NCBI GenBank assembly: GCA_002840155.1
Contig: PGZH01000009.1
Location: 124,001-188,000, forward strand
Origin: Gammaproteobacteria bacterium HGW-Gammaproteobacteria-13
GTDB taxonomy: Bacteria; Pseudomonadota; Gammaproteobacteria; Pseudomonadales; Pseudomonadaceae
DNA length: 64,000 nt
Reading direction: 5' to 3'
Position numbers and translations under genes: made by a program. Shown piece by piece: positions 8,611 through 42,972 of this stretch. A model generated the notes under the pieces. That model was not told the origin of the DNA. It was given only the letters and a program-made list of their open reading frames with translations, and did no database searches. Each line of letters begins with the position of its first letter. Positions within the stretch are counted from its first letter, which is position 1.

Positions 8611-9144
8611 TTACTCGGCTTCCTGCGCGGCCTTAAGCGCTTCATAGGCCGGCGCGGCGTAGATGCCGACTTCCACCGCCAACTCCATCACCCGCGCCAA
8701 GTCTGTGCTGTAGACCAGTACGGCTTGCAGCTCGTCATCCAGTGGCTCGCTGAAATCCAGCAAGACATACCCTTTGGTTTCCGGGCTGAGGCTGGCGAGT
8801 TGCACCTGGATGCGATTGAGCGCTTTCAGCGGCTCGACCTTGGCCAACTGCTTGGCTTTGAGCACAAAGCTCACCTCCGGGCCAAACGACTCGGTGATCT
8901 GCTGGAACAGCGCGTCATAGCTGTCGGCTTGGAACAGCACGGTTTCCGGCAGGCTGCCGACCACCACCCATTCGCCCAGCGGGATCGGGAAGCTGTCGTC
9001 GAAATTGATATCCGGGTTGGCGGCGAGAAACGCCTGCGGATCGGCATAGGCCTGGGCGGCCTCGGTGGCGATGCGCGTGACTTCTTCTGGCAGCATGCAG
9101 CCCGAGCTTATTTTGCTGATCAGTTCTTCGAGCTGGGCTTTCAT
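8611..9144 (-). CDS. Conserved hypothetical protein
   Basis: The preferred start is ATG 9144 with AGGA eight bases upstream; an ATG three codons earlier (9153) is also possible. The 177-residue protein (MKAQLEELISKISSGCMLPEE) is acidic, has no signal peptide or membrane segment, and appears to be mixed alpha/beta (LGEWVVVGSLPETVLF; VLLDFSEPLDDELQAVLVY). I do not recognise a family. It lies convergently to the FabH-like/sigma/anti-sigma operon with a hairpin between them, so it is transcribed separately. Confidence 0.7.
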   Translation of the reverse strand: MKAQLEELISKISSGCMLPEEVTRIATEAAQAYADPQAFLAANPDINFDDSFPIPLGEWVVVGSLPETVLFQADSYDALFQQITESFGPEVSFVLKAKQLAKVEPLKALNRIQVQLASLSPETKGYVLLDFSEPLDDELQAVLVYSTDLARVMELAVEVGIYAAPAYEALKAAQEAE

Positions 9145-9277
9145 TTGGGTCATCCTGCGGCATAAAAGAGGCCGGCAAGGATAGCCGCAAATGGCTGCAG
9201 AAGCTGCATGTTGGGCTATTTCGGGCCCGCACGGTGGCCAGCGTGCCACCTCTTGTAACGGCTCGGCATAGGGGCTG

Positions 9278-9297
9278 TCTGTACGGTACCGTACAGA
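9278..9297. promoter_or_regulatory. 20-bp perfect palindrome upstream of tandem Crp/Fnr genes
   Basis: TCTGTACGGT/ACCGTACAGA is a perfect 20-base inverted repeat, about 97 bases before the ATG of the first Crp/Fnr gene and followed at once by an AT-rich TATAAAAA stretch that could serve as -10. Such long GTAC-containing palindromes are typical TetR-family operators, but no TetR gene is in the window. It is not the TTGAT-N4-ATCAA type expected for Fnr. Confidence 0.6.
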
Positions 9298-9393
9298 TAT
9301 AAAAACAGATTGGATTATGCTGGTGCGTGCAGTTCAGGCTCTGTAGCGAGCGCATATCAATCGCCAACAGGCCTAAGAAGACCGGAGACAGTG

Positions 9394-10122
9394 ATGTCCG
9401 TAGCCCCCAATCCGCAGCAAAACCACCTACTTGCCGCCTTACCTGACGAAGTGCTGGAGCGCCTGTTGCCGCACCTTGAGCTGGTGGAGATGCCGCTGGG
9501 CATGGTGCTTTACGAATCGGGCGACACGCTGCGGCATGTCTACTTTCCCACCGATTCGATTGTGTCCCTGCTGTATGTGATGGAAAGCGGCGCCTCGGCG
9601 GAAATTTCCGTGGTGGGCAATGACGGGGTGATTGGCGTGGCGCTGTTTATGGGCGGCGAGAGCACCACCAGCCGGGCCATTGTGCAAAGTGCCGGCAGTG
9701 CTTATCGGGTGCTCGGCAAGCGCTTCAAGGAAGAGTTCAACCGCCATGGCGACATGCTGCAGTTGATGCTGCGTTACAGCCAGGCGCTGATTACCCAGAT
9801 GGCGCAGACAGCGGTGTGCAACCGCCACCACTCGATTGACCAGCAGCTGTGCCGCTGGCTATTGCTGTCGCTGGATCGCCTCTCCGGCAGTCAGCTGGCC
9901 ATGACCCAGGAACTGATCGCCAATATGCTCGGCGTGCGCCGTGAGGGCGTTACCGAGGCGGCCGGCAAACTGCACCGCCTGGGTGTGATCGATTACAGCC
10001 GTGGGCTGATCACTGTGCTGGATCGCGACAAGCTCGAACGCCTGAGCTGTGAGTGTTATGCCGTGGTCAAGCGCGAAACAGACCGCCTGCTGCCTTATAA
10101 AGTGGCGCATCCGGCGCACTAA
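9394..10122 (+). CDS. Crp/Fnr family transcriptional regulator (first of tandem pair)
   Basis: ATG 9394 has GGAG seven bases upstream. The 242-residue product has an N-terminal cyclic-nucleotide-binding-type beta-roll (MVLYESGDTLRHVYFPTDSI; VVGNDGVIGVALFMGG) and a C-terminal Crp-type winged helix (MTQELIANMLGVRREGVTEAAGKL). There is no N-terminal cysteine cluster like that of Fnr, so it does not look like an oxygen-sensing Fe-S protein, and the effector is unknown. A paralogue of the same architecture lies 152 bases downstream. Confidence 0.88.
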   Translation: MSVAPNPQQNHLLAALPDEVLERLLPHLELVEMPLGMVLYESGDTLRHVYFPTDSIVSLLYVMESGASAEISVVGNDGVIGVALFMGGESTTSRAIVQSAGSAYRVLGKRFKEEFNRHGDMLQLMLRYSQALITQMAQTAVCNRHHSIDQQLCRWLLLSLDRLSGSQLAMTQELIANMLGVRREGVTEAAGKLHRLGVIDYSRGLITVLDRDKLERLSCECYAVVKRETDRLLPYKVAHPAH

Positions 10123-36008: not shown

Positions 36009-36380
36009 TTAACGGTGCCCGGCGAGGGTGATCGACACCGATTCGGCAAAGCGCAGGGCGTGCAGCTTGTCGACTTCCACTTCGGCATAACATACCGCCT
36101 GATTTCCCATCACCAGGTCGAGGATTTCCTGGGTCAGGCGCTCTAGCAAGGCGAAGCGGTTGCCTTCGACGTGGCTAATCACTGCCTTGGTGATGGTTCG
36201 GTAGTTGAGGGCGTGGTCGATATCGTTGTCACGCACCGCTTCCACGGCGGGGTAGAGGATGGTCAGGTTGATCAACACGTCCTGCTTGTTGTTGATCTCC
36301 TCTTCCTTGATGCCGATGTAGGTGCGCAGGCGCAGGTCCTTGACGCGGATACGCGCCATCCCAGGTTCCAGTCGCGGCAT
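36009..36380 (-). CDS. folX: Dihydroneopterin triphosphate 2'-epimerase
   Basis: ATG 36380 overlaps the folE stop (TAATG). The 123-residue product has the FolB/FolX tunnelling fold ([29 protein letters not shown]) with the catalytic lysine region near its end ([17 protein letters not shown]). FolX converts dihydroneopterin triphosphate to the dihydromonapterin form, which FolM reduces. In pseudomonads the resulting tetrahydromonapterin is the cofactor of phenylalanine hydroxylase. Confidence 0.93.
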
Positions 36381-36940
36381 TACTTGCTCCGTCCGATCAG
36401 TTGCAGGAATTCGTGGCGAGTGTTGCAGGATTCGCGGAAGGCTCCAAGCATCACCGAAGAGGTCATCACCGAATTCTGCTTCTCCACACCGCGCATCATC
36501 ATGCACATGTGTTTGGCCTCAACCACCACGGCCACGCCAGCGGCGTTGGTAACCTGCTGGATCGCATCGGCAATCTGCTTGGTGAGGTTTTCCTGGATCT
36601 GCAGGCGGCGGGCAAACATGTCGACGATGCGGGCCACTTTCGACAGGCCGAGCACCTTGCCGGTGGGGATATAAGCCACGTGAGCCTTGCCGATAAATGG
36701 CAGCAAGTGGTGCTCGCAGAGCGAGTACAGCTCGATATCACGGACGATCACCATCTCGTCGTTATCCGACTCGAACAGCGCGCCGTTGACCACTTCGTCA
36801 AGGCTCTTGTGGTAGCCGTTGCACAGGTACTGCATGGCCTTGGCGGCGCGTTTGGGCGTGTCCAGCAGGCCTTCACGCTCGGGGTTTTCACCAACGCCGA
36901 GGAGAATCTCGCGGTAGTGGTCGGGCAGTTCTGGGGTCAT
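36380..36940 (-). CDS. folE: GTP cyclohydrolase I
   Basis: A 186-residue type I GTP cyclohydrolase, which makes dihydroneopterin triphosphate from GTP. Zinc-ligand segments [10 protein letters not shown] and the later HMCMMMRGV are intact, as is GLSKVARIV. It sits between folM (22-base gap) and folX (overlap), so these three genes form a tetrahydromonapterin pathway operon. In P. putida a folE gene is among the reported light-induced genes; operator-like repeats upstream of this operon fit that. Confidence 0.96.
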
Positions 36941-36962
36941 TACAGGGTCCTCGCGGCCAGGC

Positions 36963-37673
36963 TCATTTGAGATGGCGGCCGCCGTTGACAGTCAGTGTGG
37001 TGCCGGTGACGTAGGGGTTGTCGAGCAGGTAGCGCAAGCTTTGGTAGATCACCAGCGGCCCGGGTTCGATGCCCAGTGCCGATTTGTTCAGGGTTTTGCT
37101 GCGGTAGTCGGCGTCGTCGTTCGGGTTGAATAGGATCAGCGCCGGGGCGATGCCGTTGACCTTGATCTGTGGGGCGAAGCGCGCGGCAAACGACAGGGTC
37201 AGGCTGTCCAGCCCGGCCTTGCTGGCGCAGTAGGCCGGCCGGTTGGCGCTGCCTTTGCGCGCCACGTCATCGCTGATATGCACGATATCGGCCGGCGTTG
37301 AGCGCGCCAGCAGTGCTTGGCAATGCAGGTTGATCAGGTAGGGCGCGAGCATGTGCACGCTAAACAGTTGCTGGAAGGCCGCCGCTTCTTCGCCCGGCGC
37401 CTCCACCAGCCAGTCGGAGGCGTTGTGCACAATGGCGCGCAGGCTGTCGGTGTGGTTCTTGAGCTGTTCGATAAACGCCAGGATGCCGGCTTCGCTGGCA
37501 AAGTCCGCCTGCAGGGCCAGGGCGCCGCGCTGCCTGAGCGCAGCAATACCTTCGCGCTCGCTGCGGTAGCTGACGATCACGGCGTGACCATCATCAAGCA
37601 GGCGTTCGGCGCAGTACAGGCCGATGCGCTGGCTGGCTCCGGTTATCAGGATGGGGGCGGCGCTGACGCTCAT
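36963..37673 (-). CDS. folM: Dihydromonapterin reductase
   Basis: A 236-residue short-chain dehydrogenase with a TGASQRIG nucleotide loop and the catalytic Tyr/Lys in YCASKAGL, plus the [13 protein letters not shown] stretch typical of FolM. It reduces dihydromonapterin (and dihydrofolate weakly) with NADPH. It is the first gene of a tight operon with folE and folX. Its upstream region carries a TATACC-N12-TGTACA element and a TTGTAC/TATAAC promoter candidate on the minus strand. Confidence 0.93.
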
Positions 37674-37766: not shown

Positions 37767-37793
37767 GTTATACCAGCAATAGGCTTTGTACAA
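37767..37793 (-). promoter_or_regulatory. Candidate folM promoter with PplR-type operator
   Basis: Plus strand TATACC (37769-37774), 12 bases, then TGTACA (37787-37792). This nearly matches the PplR1 consensus I recall from P. putida, T(G/A)TACA-N12-TGTA(C/T)A. On the minus strand the same DNA reads TTGTAC, 15 bases, TATAAC, a plausible -35/-10 pair with a short spacer. The -10 lies about 94 bases upstream of the folM ATG. Confidence 0.6.
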
Positions 37794-37900
37794 CCATGCG
37801 CCCTGTGCGGGTACTGGTCTGTTTCATGCCGTTTAGCCTATTTCATTGAGCTGTATCGGTATTTTTTCTATGGATGGGCTGAATAAAATTGTTTTTATCG

Positions 37901-37925
37901 TGTACAAGATTGGTTTTCTTGTACA
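37901..37925. promoter_or_regulatory. Second TGTACA repeat pair, folM/DUF6482 intergenic
   Basis: TGTACA (37901-37906) and TGTACA (37920-37925) are separated by 13 bases. The right half ends 13 bases before the DUF6482 ATG, so a bound regulator would affect that gene directly; on the minus strand TTGTACA is followed by an AT-rich stretch that could serve a distal fol promoter. Confidence 0.6.
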
Positions 37926-37938
37926 GGTATGTGCCGTT

Positions 37939-38235
37939 ATGAAGCCTTGGCAGTTGAGCATCGCGGTGCTGTGTGGGCAGGTGTGCCATGTCGAGGTGCT
38001 CACTCTGCGCTGTTGTGGCTACAAGGTGCAGGTGGTCGGCAAGGCTGGCGGCGTGCGCACGTTGGAGTATGCGCCGGGGCGAGCGCTGTGGCCTGGGCTG
38101 GCATTGCTCAAGGCGCGTCTGCGTCGTTGCGGCGTGCGGCAGATGCTGTTGCTGCAGCCGGAAAGCCACGATGAAATTATTGCTCGCCCTGCCTTGCTTG
38201 AGCCTGATCCAGGGCTGTGGATCAAGCTGCGCTGA
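37939..38235 (+). CDS. DUF6482-like small protein
   Basis: A 98-residue basic protein (MKPWQLSIAVLCGQVCHVEVLTL). The pattern of an N-terminal short beta region, a central KVQVVGKAGGVRTLEYAPGRAL segment and a C-terminal LLLQPESHDEIIARP resembles DUF6482 proteins found in Pseudomonas, often tied to light- or stress-regulated genes. The ATG at 37939 is chosen because translation from upstream codons would read through the TGTACA repeats; its ribosome site is weak. Convergent with the DUF393 gene. Confidence 0.6.
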   Translation: MKPWQLSIAVLCGQVCHVEVLTLRCCGYKVQVVGKAGGVRTLEYAPGRALWPGLALLKARLRRCGVRQMLLLQPESHDEIIARPALLEPDPGLWIKLR

Positions 38236-38239
38236 TGGC

Positions 38240-38665
38240 TTATCGCGGGTTTCTGCTGGCAGTGCAGGTGGCGTTTCTGCAGCGCCGGCTGGCGTCCGGG
38301 TGGGGCAGCCAGTCGAGGTGTGGGCGTAGCCGGCAGAACAGTCGGTAACCCAGCTCCAGCAGCGGCCGCAATGCCGGCCAGGTCAGCGGCGCGGCCCAAC
38401 GCTCAAGGCCGGCTGCACGCCAGCTCCACAGCGTGGCATCCAGGCCGGTCACCCATTGCCCGTCGGCGAAGCGGGCATGCAGGCGGTTCTGCAGGGTTTC
38501 TCGGCTGTGGCCGACGGACTCGGGATGAAAGTCGTTTAGGCCGATATCAACCAGGCACAGGCGCTGCACATCGGCACGCTGACGCAGCAGTTGGATCTCG
38601 CGGGCGCACAGTGGGCAGTCGCCATCGTAATAAAGGGTCAGGGGCCAGCTCGGTTGCTTGTTCAT
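38240..38665 (-). CDS. DCC family thiol-disulfide oxidoreductase-like (DUF393)
   Basis: A 141-residue protein with the family signature YYDGDCPLCAREIQLL (Cys17 and Cys20 form a CxxC-like pair) close to the N-terminus. DUF393 proteins are predicted thiol-disulfide oxidoreductases with a thioredoxin-like fold. Members often neighbour photolyase and LitR-type genes. It is divergent from the MerR/LitR gene, and the 91-base gap between them holds a CTTTGTA/TACAAAG palindrome. Actual activity is unproven. Confidence 0.85.
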   Translation of the reverse strand: MNKQPSWPLTLYYDGDCPLCAREIQLLRQRADVQRLCLVDIGLNDFHPESVGHSRETLQNRLHARFADGQWVTGLDATLWSWRAAGLERWAAPLTWPALRPLLELGYRLFCRLRPHLDWLPHPDASRRCRNATCTASRNPR

Positions 38666-38674
38666 GGTCTAACT

Positions 38675-38697
38675 CTTTGTATAAGTCTTGTACAAAG
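38675..38697. promoter_or_regulatory. Operator-like palindrome between DUF393 and MerR/LitR genes
   Basis: CTTTGTA (38675-38681) and TACAAAG (38691-38697) form an inverted repeat with a 9-base spacer. Overlapping this are TGTATA (38678) and TGTACA (38689), 11 bases apart. On the minus strand TATACA could be the -10 of the DUF393 gene, whose ATG lies 12 bases on. A regulator here would control both divergent genes, including its own. Confidence 0.65.
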
Positions 38698-38756
38698 TAT
38701 GCCGGAAGTAGCTGAGTTACAATGCGTGCAACATTTTTTCTGTGATACCTGCGCCC

Positions 38757-39710
38757 ATGTCCGATCACGTTGGTACTGCGTCCCTCGTTTCGAGTGCCCT
38801 CAAGCAGGAAGAGTTATTTCCTATCCGTGAGGTGGCGCGCCTGACCGGCGTCAATCCGGTCACGTTGCGGGCCTGGGAGCGGCGCTATGGGCTGATCCAG
38901 CCAACCCGCACCGACAGCGGCCATCGCCTGTATTCGCAGGTGGATATCGAGTCGGTGCGCAGCATCCTGGCGTGGATCGAGCGCGGTGTGGCGGTGAGCA
39001 AGGTTGGCAAGATTCTGGCCAAAAGCAGCTCGATCAAATCTGCCAGTTCACCGGTTTATGAAGAGGTCAGCGCCAGCGAGTGGGGCGAGTGGCAAGCCCA
39101 GCTGCGCCGCGCCATCAGCGCCTTCGATGAGCCGCGCCTGGATCGTCTGTACGGCCAGATTTTCTCCAGCTACCCGTTGCCGGTGGTGTTTCAGGACATC
39201 CTCATGCCGCTGTGGCAGGAGCTGTTGCTGCGCCAGGACGAGTACGGCCAGACCAGCGAGTGGCTGTTTCTCGATACCTTTCTGCGTGCCCGTACCTTGC
39301 AGCGCCTGCAGGTACTGCGTGCCCAGGTTGAGGAGCGCGTACTACTGGCAGCCTTGCCGGGCCATTGCCGCGAATTGGAACTGCTGGTTGCCGGATTGCT
39401 GCTGAGCAGTGCCGACACCGCTGTCAGTGTGCTCGGGCTGGGTCAGCCGCTGGAAGAACTGACTCTGATCTGTGAAAAAATGCAGCCCCAGGCCCTGGTG
39501 CTGTTCTCCAATCAGCCGCCCAGTGATGACTTGCCCAAGGTGCTCTCGCGTCTGGCGCTGGCGTTGGATTGCCCGCTGGTGATGGCCGGCGATGGTGCCG
39601 ACCTGGCCGAGGAAAGCCTCAGCGGTTCGCCGATTGCCTGCCTGGGCAACGAAGGGCGCCTGATGCAGCGCCGCCTGCAGCAGTTTCTGGCTGGCCACCT
39701 GGATACCTGA
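38757..39710 (+). CDS. LitR/CarH-family MerR regulator, B12-ligand residues lost (PplR-like)
   Basis: A 317-residue protein: MerR winged helix (about 20-85; LTGVNPVTLRAWERRYGL, SGHRLYS), a four-helix segment (about 105-190) and a B12-binding-like fold (about 190-310). In B12-sensing CarH the helical segment ends in an Glu-His pair and the Rossmann part has GExHELG with the axial His; here these read E168-W169 and G202-H203-C204-R205-E206-L207. That fits class II LitR proteins such as P. putida PplR1-3, which work with short LOV photoreceptors. ATG 38757 is used; a GTG 15 bases upstream is possible. Confidence 0.88.
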   Translation: MSDHVGTASLVSSALKQEELFPIREVARLTGVNPVTLRAWERRYGLIQPTRTDSGHRLYSQVDIESVRSILAWIERGVAVSKVGKILAKSSSIKSASSPVYEEVSASEWGEWQAQLRRAISAFDEPRLDRLYGQIFSSYPLPVVFQDILMPLWQELLLRQDEYGQTSEWLFLDTFLRARTLQRLQVLRAQVEERVLLAALPGHCRELELLVAGLLLSSADTAVSVLGLGQPLEELTLICEKMQPQALVLFSNQPPSDDLPKVLSRLALALDCPLVMAGDGADLAEESLSGSPIACLGNEGRLMQRRLQQFLAGHLDT

Positions 39711-39801
39711 TTTCTTCTATTAAGCACGCCTGAATAAGCGCAGTCGCCGTTATGGCAACTGCGCTTTCGCCTGCGTGCAATTTTTTGCTGATTCCGATTA
39801 G

Positions 39802-39900
39802 TTGTACAGCTTGTACAGAAAACTGCTTGCTATCTGGGGTTTTAGGCTATACAAAAGCTATACATTGTTTGTTTGTGTATAGCTTGTATCCACTTGTACA
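39802..39900. promoter_or_regulatory. Cluster of seven TGTACA/TATACA repeats upstream of acyl-CoA dehydrogenase
   Basis: Hexamers occur at 39803 (TGTACA), 39812 (TGTACA), 39848 (TATACA), 39859 (TATACA), 39876 (TGTATA), 39885 (TGTATC) and 39895 (TGTACA). CTATACA (39858) and TGTATAG (39876) form a perfect inverted repeat with an 11-base spacer, and TGTATA/TGTACA at 39876/39895 are spaced by 13. The last repeat ends 18 bases before the dehydrogenase ATG. The motif matches those near folM and the LitR gene. Confidence 0.75.
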
Positions 39901-39918
39901 GCTTGAGGACTCAGCAAC

Positions 39919-41697
39919 ATGACCCAATACCGCGCACCCCTTCGTGATATGCGTTTCGTTTTTGACGAGGTGCTCGACGCTTATGCCACCCTGCAGTCGC
40001 TGCCTAGTCAGCGCGAGTTCGGAAACGACCTCGGTGGCGCCATTCTGGAAGAAGCCGCCAAGCTGGCGGAAAACGTGCTGGCCCCATTGAATGGGTCAGG
40101 CGACAAGCAAGGCTGCGCGTATGATCCGCAGAGCAAGTCGGTAAAAACCCCGGATGGCTTTCGTGCTGCCTATCAGCAATTCGCCGAAGGTGGCTGGACC
40201 GCACTGGCCTGCTCGCCTGGGTTTGGTGGCCAGGGGCTGCCCCATGTGCTGAATATGATGGTCGAGGAGATGGTCTGCTCGGCCAACCTGTCGCTGGGCA
40301 TGTACCCGGGCCTGACCCACGGCGCGATCAATGCGCTGACCGCCCACGGCGCCCGCGAATTGCAGGAGCGCTACCTGCCCAAACTGATTAGCGGCGAATG
40401 GACCGGCACCATGTGCCTGACTGAGCCGCAGTGCGGCACCGATCTGGGCTTGATTCGTACCCGCGCCGTACCGCAGGCGGACGGCAGCTATGCCATAAGT
40501 GGTACGAAGATCTGGATCACCGGCGGCGAGCACGATCTGGTTGACAACATCCTGCACCTGGTACTGGCCAAACTGCCCGATGCCCCGGACAGCGTGAAAG
40601 GCATTTCGCTGTTCCTAGTGCCCAAGTTTCTTGAAGATGGCAGCCGTAATCCGGCGTTCTGCGGCGGCCTGGAACACAAGATGGGCATCAAGGGCTCGGC
40701 CACCTGCGTGATGAATTTCGAAGGCGCCCAGGGCTGGTTGATCGGCGAGCCGAACAAGGGCCTCAAATGCATGTTCACCATGATGAATTCGGCGCGTTTG
40801 ATGGTGGGCATGCAAGGCCTTGGCATTGCTGAAAGTGCCTACCAGGTCAGCCTCGGTTTCGCCAAGGAGCGCCTGCAAAGCCGTTCGCTGTCGGGCCCGA
40901 AAGCTGCTGATAAACCGGCCGATCCGATCATCGTGCATCCGGACGTACGCCGCATGTTGCTGCGTCAGAAGGTGATGATCGAAGGCTGTCGCGCGCTGGC
41001 CTATTTCACTGGTCTGCATGAAGACGTTGCCCATGACCACGAAGACCCCGCGGTGCGCGAGCAGGCCGATGATCTGGTGCAACTGCTGACCCCAGTGGTG
41101 AAGTCCTTCCTCACCGATGAAGGTTTCAACTGCGCCAACGAAGGCTTGCAGGTGCTCGGCGGCTCCGGCTTCACCGAAGACTGGGGCATCGAGCAACTGG
41201 TACGTGACTCGCGGATTACCCGCATCTATGAAGGCACCAACGGCATTCAGGCGCTGGATTTGGTCGGGCGCAAACTGGGCCTGGGTGGCGGCCGTGCGGT
41301 GCGTAATTACTTCGCCCTGGTCGAAGGTTGGCTCAAGGCCAATGCCGAGGCTGAGCACGTCACAGCGGTAGGTGCTGCCCTCAAGCAGTTGCAGCAAGCC
41401 ACGCTGTGGATTGCCAGCGAGGGGATGAAAGACCCCGAGCAGGCCGGCGCCGCAGCAACCCCTTACTTGCGCTTGTTTGCCCTGACCAGCCTGGCCTGGA
41501 TGTGGGCGCGCATGGCTGCCGTGGCCAAGGCCAAGCTGGCGGCCGGCAGCACGGAAACCCTGTTTTACGGCGCCAAGCTGAAGTCTGCGGACTTTTTTAT
41601 GGCGCGCATCCTGACCGAGACCGACAGCCTGTTGGCTGAGGTCAAGGCCGGCAAAGCCACGCTGATGGCCTTCAGTGAAGAGGAATTTGCTGCCTGA
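39919..41697 (+). CDS. Acyl-CoA dehydrogenase (C-terminal-extended, about 592 aa)
   Basis: A 592-residue flavoprotein of the long acyl-CoA dehydrogenase type with an extra C-terminal domain, common in Pseudomonas fatty-acid degradation. Family motifs include MCLTEPQCGTDLGL (FAD loop), KIWITGGEHD, MNSARLMVGMQGLG, and RITRIYEGTNGIQALDL containing the catalytic glutamate region. It oxidises acyl-CoA to enoyl-CoA and passes electrons to ETF. GAGG precedes the ATG. Unusually, its promoter region is packed with TGTACA/TATACA repeats shared with the neighbouring LitR/fol genes. A terminator follows at 41790. Confidence 0.93.
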   Translation: MTQYRAPLRDMRFVFDEVLDAYATLQSLPSQREFGNDLGGAILEEAAKLAENVLAPLNGSGDKQGCAYDPQSKSVKTPDGFRAAYQQFAEGGWTALACSPGFGGQGLPHVLNMMVEEMVCSANLSLGMYPGLTHGAINALTAHGARELQERYLPKLISGEWTGTMCLTEPQCGTDLGLIRTRAVPQADGSYAISGTKIWITGGEHDLVDNILHLVLAKLPDAPDSVKGISLFLVPKFLEDGSRNPAFCGGLEHKMGIKGSATCVMNFEGAQGWLIGEPNKGLKCMFTMMNSARLMVGMQGLGIAESAYQVSLGFAKERLQSRSLSGPKAADKPADPIIVHPDVRRMLLRQKVMIEGCRALAYFTGLHEDVAHDHEDPAVREQADDLVQLLTPVVKSFLTDEGFNCANEGLQVLGGSGFTEDWGIEQLVRDSRITRIYEGTNGIQALDLVGRKLGLGGGRAVRNYFALVEGWLKANAEAEHVTAVGAALKQLQQATLWIASEGMKDPEQAGAAATPYLRLFALTSLAWMWARMAAVAKAKLAAGSTETLFYGAKLKSADFFMARILTETDSLLAEVKAGKATLMAFSEEEFAA

Positions 41698-41789
41698 AAC
41701 GACTGCGCAATCCGGTAGCCATCAGTTCCGCCCATTTTCGGCTATCGGATTTTTTTATCCCTGCTGCAGGCGTTTCGCCTGCACTTTAG

Positions 41790-41815
41790 GCCCGCCTGAT
41801 TGCGGGTCTTTTTTT
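41790..41815 (+). terminator. Rho-independent terminator after acyl-CoA dehydrogenase
   Basis: GCCCGC pairs with GCGGGT (one G-U pair) around a six-base loop, followed by TCTTTTTTT. A further small hairpin (TGCAGGCG / CGCCTGCA) lies just upstream at 41764-41782. Confidence 0.8.
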
Positions 41816-41846
41816 GTCTGGGATTTGCGCGGAATGTGTTGGGGGC

Positions 41847-42458
41847 TCAGCGGCGCCCAGCATGCAGCCGTTGTTCCTGCTGCAGGTGTTGCTGGTAGAT
41901 AAACTGGCGCAGCTGCTCATCGCTTTGCGGGTCCAGGGTGTGCAGCTGATAGGCCAGCAGGCCGTCTTCGGTTGCACGGACGAAAACCCCGATCACCGCA
42001 ATCGGCGTGTGCTCGTCTACCGGCAACACCAGATGAAAGCGCTTGGGCGCCTTACGCCGGGCCCGATGCTCGATCAACGCGCCATTCATCGACAGCTGAT
42101 GAATCCACAGGTCGCTCGGCTGCGCACTGGGTGTGTGCAGCGGCAATGGCTCGGGCAGGGGCGAGCGCCAGGCGCGGTTGATCTCACCTTCATCGAAAAT
42201 CTGCGGGGCGCTGAGCTGCAGGCAGGGCGTGCTTTGCTCATCCTGGCTGAGGTGCAGGTCGAAGGTCAGGTGCTGGTTGGCGATATGCGCATGCAGGCTT
42301 AGCTGCTCATTGACGGCGCAGTGCGACAGCAGCTCGCTGAGCTGTTTGCCAATATCCACCGACAAGCGCGGTTGGCTGCGCTGTTCGGTGGTTGCGGGCT
42401 GGTGCAGCTGGCGGATAAAGGCCAGTTCTGCCTGGGTCAGGAGTGCCTGTTCTTGCAT
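41847..42458 (-). CDS. Probable PilZ-domain protein
   Basis: A 203-residue cytoplasmic protein. The middle part has LWIHQLSMNGALIEH, which resembles the D/NxSxxG strand of PilZ c-di-GMP receptors, followed by a beta-rich region (FHLVLPVDEHTPIAVIGVFVRA). The typical RxxxR motif is not evident, so c-di-GMP binding is uncertain. It is downstream of the LOV gene on the same strand (52 bases), so the two may be co-transcribed. Confidence 0.55.
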   Translation of the reverse strand: MQEQALLTQAELAFIRQLHQPATTEQRSQPRLSVDIGKQLSELLSHCAVNEQLSLHAHIANQHLTFDLHLSQDEQSTPCLQLSAPQIFDEGEINRAWRSPLPEPLPLHTPSAQPSDLWIHQLSMNGALIEHRARRKAPKRFHLVLPVDEHTPIAVIGVFVRATEDGLLAYQLHTLDPQSDEQLRQFIYQQHLQQEQRLHAGRR

Positions 42459-42510
42459 GGAAGCGGTCTACATCAATCCCTAGAAGCTGTTGTGACCGCT
42501 GCACTGGGGA

Positions 42511-42972
42511 TTAGTTACTGCCGGTCGTCGCCTGCAGGCGCGCCAGTTCTGCCTTGAGTATCGCCAGTTCGGCTTCCAGCTGGGTGACCCGCTCCTGCGC
42601 CTCGACCTGCTCGGTAACGTTCTTCTGGATACCGATGTAATAGGTCAACTGGTCGGCATCATTGACCACCGGGGTGATCGACAGCTCGTTCCAGAACGGC
42701 GTGCCGTCTTTGCGGTAGTTGCGGATGATCTGCCGGCATGGGCGGTGCGTCTTCACCGCTTCGCGGATCGCCGCGAGGCCCGGCTGGTCGCGGTCACCGG
42801 CCTGGAGGAAGCGGCAATCCTGATAAAGGATGTCTTCGCTGGCGTAACCCGTGAGCTTTTCAAAGGCGGGGTTGGCATAGATCAGGATGTTGTCGTCACC
42901 TTCCTGTTCGGCCACCACGATGCCGTCGTTGGAGGCGTTGATCACCAGTTGCAGCAGTTTGGCGTTGATCAT
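42511..42972 (-). CDS. Short LOV blue-light receptor (PpSB-LOV type)
   Basis: A 153-residue single-domain photoreceptor. The LOV core has the photoactive cysteine Cys53 within DCRFLQ, the FMN-contacting N-x-A-F-x-x-L-T-G-Y segment (residues 34-43) and NYRKDGTPFWNELSITPV, followed by a C-terminal coiled-coil helix (about 120-148). The start and key residues closely match P. putida PpSB1-LOV as I recall it, including Cys53. Such proteins form dimers that switch in blue light and, in P. putida, are needed for PplR-dependent light induction. The LitR-type gene lies 2.8 kb away. Confidence 0.92.
   Translation of the reverse strand: MINAKLLQLVINASNDGIVVAEQEGDDNILIYANPAFEKLTGYASEDILYQDCRFLQAGDRDQPGLAAIREAVKTHRPCRQIIRNYRKDGTPFWNELSITPVVNDADQLTYYIGIQKNVTEQVEAQERVTQLEAELAILKAELARLQATTGSN

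Follow-up and report, generated by a model that had tools for sequence, protein, structure and literature searches.

A stretch of 64,000 nucleotides from Gammaproteobacteria bacterium HGW-Gammaproteobacteria-13, here called the window (C20:124001-188000 of genome G000, which comprises 4,545,609 bases in 26 contigs), encodes a LitR-type MerR regulator and a short LOV photoreceptor. Together they very probably form (probability about 0.82) a blue-light switch of the PmlR2/PmSB-LOV type, with N12 and CarH-like N5 operators at local and distant targets. A half-site is defined as T(G/A)TA(C/T)A; two of them in the form TRTAYA-N5-TRTAYA (N5 pair) have a spacing of 11 bp, and those of an N12 pair a spacing of 18 bp. 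The core of the switch is already known, because LitR, the short LOV with Cys53 and folMEX match the PmlR2/PmSB-LOV region published for Pseudomonas mendocina (Maruyama et al. 2022, PMC9758184). New here is an 11-bp operator class beside the published 18-bp spacing, and the LitR targets appear to use both.

The N5 pair TRTAYA-N5-TRTAYA occurs exactly three times in the genome (control, 0). One pair lies between litR and the gene of a DCC1-like thiol-disulfide oxidoreductase (DCC), one in the promoter of an acyl-CoA dehydrogenase gene (ACAD), and the third in the promoter of a BLUF gene (C22:71722). The pairs fit the tandem 11-bp CarH form TnnACA, reading TATACA-N5-TATACA at ACAD and TGTACA-N5-TATACA on the DCC strand. 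TRTAYA-N12-TRTAYA is found four times (control, 2), three times at the cluster of a second regulator, LitR1, and once on contig C11. The order of the genes in the window is folX-like, folE, folM (minus strand), DUF6482 (plus), DCC (minus), litR and ACAD (plus), PilZ and short LOV (minus), and the features are as follows.

36009-36380, minus strand: folX-like gene, an open reading frame with a FolB-family match, operon-like with folE and folM (36009..37673)
36380-36940, minus strand: folE, GTP cyclohydrolase I match
36963-37673, minus strand: folM, short-chain dehydrogenase/reductase match
37769..37792, minus strand: folM operator TGTACA-N12-GGTATA, 18-bp class, the same site as the P. mendocina folM site given in the text of PMC9758184
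37901..37925, plus strand: operator TGTACA-N13-TGTACA 5' of the DUF6482 gene
37939..38235, plus strand: DUF6482-family small protein, 98 amino acids, family call via homologues (6/7 above the Pfam cut-off of 23.5 bits; window protein 15.6 bits)
38240..38665, minus strand: DCC1-like/DUF393 thiol-disulfide oxidoreductase (PF04134, E 1e-21)
38678..38694, minus strand: 11-bp operator TGTACA-N5-TATACA, directly 5' of the DCC start and upstream of litR
38757..39710, plus strand: class II LitR, a PmlR2-type MerR repressor by MerR_1 and CarH matches and predicted fold
39803..39817, plus strand: additional half-sites TGTACA-N3-TGTACA, located 5' of the core ACAD operator
39848..39881, plus strand: core ACAD operator TATACA-N5-TATACA-N11-TGTATA, overlapping the predicted -10 element
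39895..39900, plus strand: extra TGTACA half-site close to the ACAD start
39919..41697, plus strand: acyl-CoA dehydrogenase (ACAD), 592 amino acids, Pfam match
41847..42458, minus strand: PilZ-domain protein, borderline (PF07238, 22.6 bits against a cut-off of 22.5)
42511..42972, minus strand: short LOV photoreceptor, 153 amino acids, Cys53, match to solved short LOVs

An earlier note on this DNA had placed a LitR gene and a short LOV receptor 2.8 kb apart, with TGTACA/TATACA repeats before folM, the DUF6482 gene, DUF393 (DCC)/litR and ACAD; the genes are present as described, and so are the repeats. Three gaps (folM/DUF6482, DCC/litR and ACAD; 564 bp) contain 11 half-sites, a number reached in none of 5000 shuffles (mean 0.68, maximum 6), and two N5 pairs (shuffle mean 0.001). 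The half-sites are positioned at 37787 (folM), 37901 and 37920 (DUF6482 gene), 38678 and 38689 (DCC/litR), and 39803, 39812, 39848, 39859, 39876 and 39895 (ACAD promoter); the folM side also has GGTATA on the minus strand (37769-37774). TGTACA is present 638 times genome-wide, and seven copies lie within 37767-39900 (expected 0.30, Poisson 3e-8), so that the repeats are commoner here than in the genome at large. Taken across all 64,000 nucleotides, TGTACA is less strongly enriched (15 copies where the genome rate predicts 9.0, p 0.04), with 0/100 shuffled windows reaching 15; the remainder of the window holds 10 TGTACA/TATACA/TGTATA. The signal is a clustering of half-sites rather than a window-wide excess.

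The exact consensus T(G/A)TACA-N12-TGTA(C/T)A has no match in the window, where the folM site comes within one mismatch of it; with up to two mismatches it matches at two places (1.3 expected by chance). Window pairs other than the folM site are spaced by N5 or N13. The folM site lies 95 bp 5' of the gene, as does TGTACA-N12-GGTATA in P. mendocina (PMC9758184). GGTATA could be a portion of the -10 element (GGTATAAC). The form TGTACA-N11-13-[GA]TATA is present in 62/72 folM promoters examined (10 misses), and an N11-13 pair precedes the DUF6482 gene in 16/19 loci having that gene. No half-site lies within 150 bp of the LOV gene in 70/70 loci examined.

A sample of 80 named loci (1,555,753 bp in total), across which the fol genes are syntenic beside litR, contains 60 N5 pairs, and 60/60 are located in the two gaps flanking litR. 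DCC/litR or ACAD promoters account for 54; six lie directly behind litR, the place of ACAD in other species. The window LitR is 100% identical to LitR of the metagenome-assembled genome (MAG) 'Pseudomonas sp. C24' and 98% identical to that of P. peli DSM 17833. One record of the sample titled as a Comamonas MAG (L062) holds a Pseudomonas locus; the bin looks mislabelled or contaminated, because positions and identities are the same as in L060.

ACAD promoters adjoining litR carry the N5 pair in 22/23 cases, the miss (L091) being one base off by eye, and a third half-site follows 11 bases downstream in 20/23. Across 13 aligned ACAD promoters (mean column identity 58%), no stretch varies less than the operator. 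A TTGC element stands 5' of the first half-site in 21/23 loci, at a gap of 15-16 bp in 19 and of 19 bp in two by the pattern used; on this basis, the -10 element is plausibly the first TATACA. Some operator arrays are composite, mixing 11-bp with 17-19-bp spacings. Paralogue-specific codes (N5 for LitR2, N12 for LitR1) were dropped, since N12 sites have been demonstrated for PmlR2 and the two spacings occur together in composite arrays.

The DCC/litR site tracks DCC rather than litR: the N5 pair is found in 31/45 loci with DCC adjacent to litR and in 1/35 with DCC elsewhere (Fisher 3e-10), and by eye several of the 14 DCC-adjacent misses deviate in a single base. LitR autoregulation is thus a less likely role of this site. 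A protein search for ACAD orthologues in 26 chosen genomes retrieved 11 (85-97% identity), all with the N5 pair and four of them unlinked to litR (L109-L112). Paralogues (<=57% identity) have the pair in 0/19 cases, and 13/19 carry a GTTTCAAAC box instead. A fifth unlinked ACAD orthologue (L210) and three litR-unlinked DCC genes (L206, L211, L214) have N5 pairs as well. As litR-unlinked genes keep their operators, the operators stay with the genes and not with the neighbourhood alone.

In L038, L042, L051 and L054 (directly behind litR) and, by eye, in L191 (around 2272), an ACAD promoter-operator runs straight into an ACAD-type terminator and the gene itself is absent, as if ACAD had been lost repeatedly. 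L031 retains the operator and an apparent decayed ACAD start. A conserved small RNA from these scars was unsupported by eye, the operator-terminator spacer differing between L051 and L054.

The third genomic N5 pair starts 71 bp 5' of a gene for a 144-residue BLUF protein (PF04940, E 6e-30; L132:7234-7668), with a PAS-GGDEF-EAL gene downstream on the same strand. Among 50 LitR-bearing genomes, 18 have a BLUF orthologue (identity >=76%), and 16/18 of these show an N5 pair within 600 bp. Ten pairs start 51-81 bp before the gene; the other six do so at 487-493 bp, ahead of a small gene located 5' of BLUF, as in L194-L197. The two misses are L149, without any pair, and L160, where by eye a single base deviates. 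The pair is also present in both additional relatives that have a close BLUF (G038, G040), and divergent BLUFs (<=43% identity) have it in 0/11 cases, four from the surveyed genomes and seven from other relatives. A GGDEF-EAL gene follows BLUF in at least 12/18.

In 20 chosen LitR2 genomes, 43 N5 pairs were counted against 9 in the control; seven contain TATATA and were set aside. The other 36 fall to DCC/litR (9), ACAD (11), BLUF (7), an ACAD-type promoter without gene (1; L191, by eye), a gap behind litR (1; L184), CHASE3-GGDEF genes (2; L186, L189), chemoreceptors (2; L185, L190) and DUF6482 genes (2; L183, L187); the last one, at G012:C16, stays outside these groups. A DPRP photolyase-related gene follows the DUF6482 gene of L183. 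This DUF6482-DPRP operon resembles PME7070-cryB, an operon published as light-induced, and we infer that they are the same. The same-genus relatives (35 genomes) contain 39 N5 pairs (control, 9). LitR matches (E 1e-20) are present in 35/35 same-genus and 2/21 same-order relatives.

Twenty of the 39 same-genus sites were inspected. One belongs to ACAD, three to DCC, one to a gap between polyprenyl synthetase and FMN_dh genes, and one precedes a PAS histidine kinase gene. Four lie in one conserved coding frame (L201, L202, L208, L220; RelA/SpoT by Pfam for L202) and two in another (response regulator-GGDEF for L204); the other eight include L203 and L212, which share both flanking genes. At L219:2279-2295, an N5 pair with a third half-site stands between polyprenyl synthetase and FMN_dh (IDI-2-like) genes. 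The relative concerned has a LitR1-like regulator only, and the site recalls CarH control of carotenoid genes.

The N-terminus of the window LitR is a MerR helix-turn-helix (HTH; MerR_1, E 5e-16), and the best solved match is Thermus CarH (5c8d, E 1e-18). The histidine of the CarH stretch PGERHEIG is presumably the cobalamin ligand. In LitR this stretch (ligand part ERHEIG) aligns with PGHCRELE (HCRELE); the histidine is therefore replaced by arginine and the ligand motif is lost. PF02607 (B12-binding_2) is reached at E 1e-3 by LitR1 but not by the window LitR. An AlphaFold2 model from 41 sequences (mean pLDDT 84, pTM 0.70) predicts the HTH, a helical bundle (99-188) and a Rossmann-like domain. 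Its best structural matches are CarH; full-length chains give a root-mean-square deviation of 11.8-19.5 A, so the domain arrangements are not superposable. Against the isolated CarH cobalamin domain (8c32), TMt is 0.78 at about 3.4-3.5 A, and the fold of this domain seems to be retained in the model despite the loss of the ligand motif. Residues 1-151 of the LOV protein match 7r5n (E 6e-72); it has no effector domain, and its photoactive cysteine is Cys53. The genome holds two LitR-like genes (100% and 38%), besides two weaker matches (30% over the HTH), and one short LOV; two further LOV matches (35%, 26%) are parts of open frames with lengths of 1260 and 896 amino acids.

The earlier note's proposal of a blue-light regulon in which LitR and a short LOV act through common TGTACA-type operators is supported, and the same arrangement has been published for P. 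mendocina, where pmlR2, pmSB-LOV and folMEX share one region (PMC9758184). PmlR2 represses at TGTACA-N12-TGTACA, and lit PmSB-LOV binds its N-terminal domain in a Cys53-dependent manner and releases it. The evidence in that text shows that LOV and LitR make contact, that the repressor is released, that it binds the folM promoter and that folM is induced; light raises folM 2.4-2.5 fold and folE 1.6-3.3 fold, and the strongest induction in its Table 1 belongs to a separate pmlR1 cluster (PMC9758184). Both regions have a class II LitR near a Cys53 short LOV, adjoining folMEX, TGTACA-N12-GGTATA at folM and a separate LitR-photolyase cluster. The window differs in having ACAD between litR and LOV and an adjoining DCC with an N5 operator. 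The text of PMC9758184 makes no mention of acyl-CoA dehydrogenase and names BLUF once, for E. coli. The literature listings and text passages searched yielded no report in which LitR controls ACAD, DCC or BLUF.

By analogy, the CarH-folded, B12-ligand-less LitR would sit in the dark on tandem TRTAYA half-sites overlapping promoters and repress. In blue light, a Cys53-flavin mononucleotide adduct would form in the short LOV, which would then bind LitR and free it from DNA, a step taken from P. mendocina. Candidate targets are folMEX, the DUF6482 gene, DCC and ACAD beside LitR, and the RudS-LitR1-photolyase cluster and the BLUF gene at a distance. LitR would bind the N5 sites, and ACAD, DCC and BLUF would be light-induced; judged from sequence, light may control more genes than have been published for such a switch.

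Related systems share parts of this scheme. Pseudomonas putida KT2440 has class II LitRs, short LOVs and a T(G/A)TACA consensus, with induction of folE, phrB, ufaM and cryB described in the texts of PMC9758184 and PMC8508746. It possesses three LitRs (PplR1-3) and two short LOVs (PpSB-LOV), whereas the genome studied here has two and one, respectively. Class I CarH/LitR proteins (Thermus, Bacillus, Myxococcus) have the same fold and tandem 11-bp repeats nnnnTnnACAn, which can overlap -35 or -10 (PMC9304148). Unlike these, the window LitR has lost the B12 ligand stretch, and light sensing is passed to the LOV. Escherichia coli BluR/BluF likewise combines a MerR-type repressor, GTACA half-sites and release by a blue-light receptor. 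In that system the releasing receptor is a BLUF-EAL protein (PMC3509220), whereas LOV would take this role here and BLUF is a candidate target. Two Vibrio cholerae acyl-CoA dehydrogenases rise under blue light, a loose parallel only (PMC5241685). The possibility that ACAD is UfaD, of the furan fatty acid pathway, was rejected on the protein type, since UfaD is reported to bind NAD/FAD and to resemble phytoene dehydrogenases and desaturases (PMC7380195).

The second LitR cluster is located 117 kb away at C20:44.9 kb (about 44.8-46.8 kb) and comprises a RudS-like 2-thiouracil desulfurase/DUF1722 gene, LitR1 and a photolyase gene (L099:9768-10829 and 8833-9771 for cluster genes). It has the only two perfect TGTACA-N12-TGTACA sites of the genome; its third N12 pair (L099:12137) has a flavin amine-oxidase-like gene on one side and an epimerase-ferrochelatase pair on the other. 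On C11, TATACA-N12-TGTACA stands about 93 bp 5' of a 4HB chemoreceptor gene (L100:9962-9985; C11:89961). This gene may be a further target, at a background of two N12 pairs in the control to four in the genome. The view that the window carries a compact version, with most targets beside the regulator, finds no support: the LitR1-photolyase cluster is 117 kb off, BLUF with the third N5 pair is on contig C22, and litR-unlinked ACAD and DCC genes carry operators in other species.

A number of points speak against a LitR switch with both spacings. PmlR2 sites were published with an N12 consensus, and the text of PMC9758184 contains neither '11-bp' nor 'direct repeat'. It also reports that pmlR2 (1.4-1.5 fold) and pmSB-LOV (0.9-1.1 fold) are hardly induced in light. 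TGTACA-like sites suit other MerR proteins too, e.g. MlrA/BluR, and two LitR paralogues share the genome, each a possible binder. Same-order relatives (21) yield 26 N5 pairs against 40 in the control. An exact pair is missing despite LitR in 12/35 same-genus and 2/20 chosen genomes, so LitR presence is no guarantee of one. The matches within RelA/SpoT and response-regulator-GGDEF frames are taken as coding chance. L210 and the unlinked DCC genes came from the N5 scan itself and give no unbiased rate; the orthologues are related, and their conserved sites are not independent events.

It is nevertheless unlikely that the N5 arrays belong to another regulator, such as a fatty-acid regulator at ACAD or LitR1, with the N12-type folM site alone being that of the window LitR. 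The N12 form of the published PmlR2 sites (PMC9758184) would agree with such a division, as would N5 pairs in three of six relatives with only LitR1-like proteins (37-40%: G039, G044, G046, G052, G053, G054). The pair of G052 sits between polyprenyl synthetase and FMN_dh (IDI-2-like) genes, but of the three in G044/G046 two lie in a RelA/SpoT-like frame (L201, L208) and one overlaps an open frame (L209). Moreover, the N5 pair fronts unrelated light-themed genes (BLUF, the DUF6482-DPRP operon, DCC beside litR), composite arrays combine both kinds of spacing, and the ACAD paralogues lack the pair. Very improbable is a relic of the ACAD/DCC neighbourhood without present regulatory effect; operator and terminator do remain at the five loci that lack the ACAD gene, yet four litR-unlinked ACAD orthologues retain the operator, which is also the most invariant part of the aligned promoters.

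The LitR switch with two operator spacings would link B12-free, LOV-controlled Pseudomonas LitRs to the classical CarH operator geometry, and the N5 pair gives a short, low-background DNA signature for finding candidate targets across many genomes. One blue-light receptor is predicted to control the gene of another, with a reach to cyclic di-GMP (c-di-GMP) enzymes, chemoreceptors and fatty-acid oxidation. More tentatively, and somewhat less likely than not as a whole, a photoreceptor cascade can be envisaged, in which LOV-released LitR would derepress BLUF and GGDEF-EAL via CarH-spaced 11-bp operators retained by B12-free LitRs and, in relatives, CHASE3-GGDEF and chemoreceptor genes; LitR might in turn be subject to feedback from BLUF, in the way that BluF acts on BluR in E. 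coli. If so, light would induce repair and pterin genes and would also re-tune light sensing and c-di-GMP or motility.

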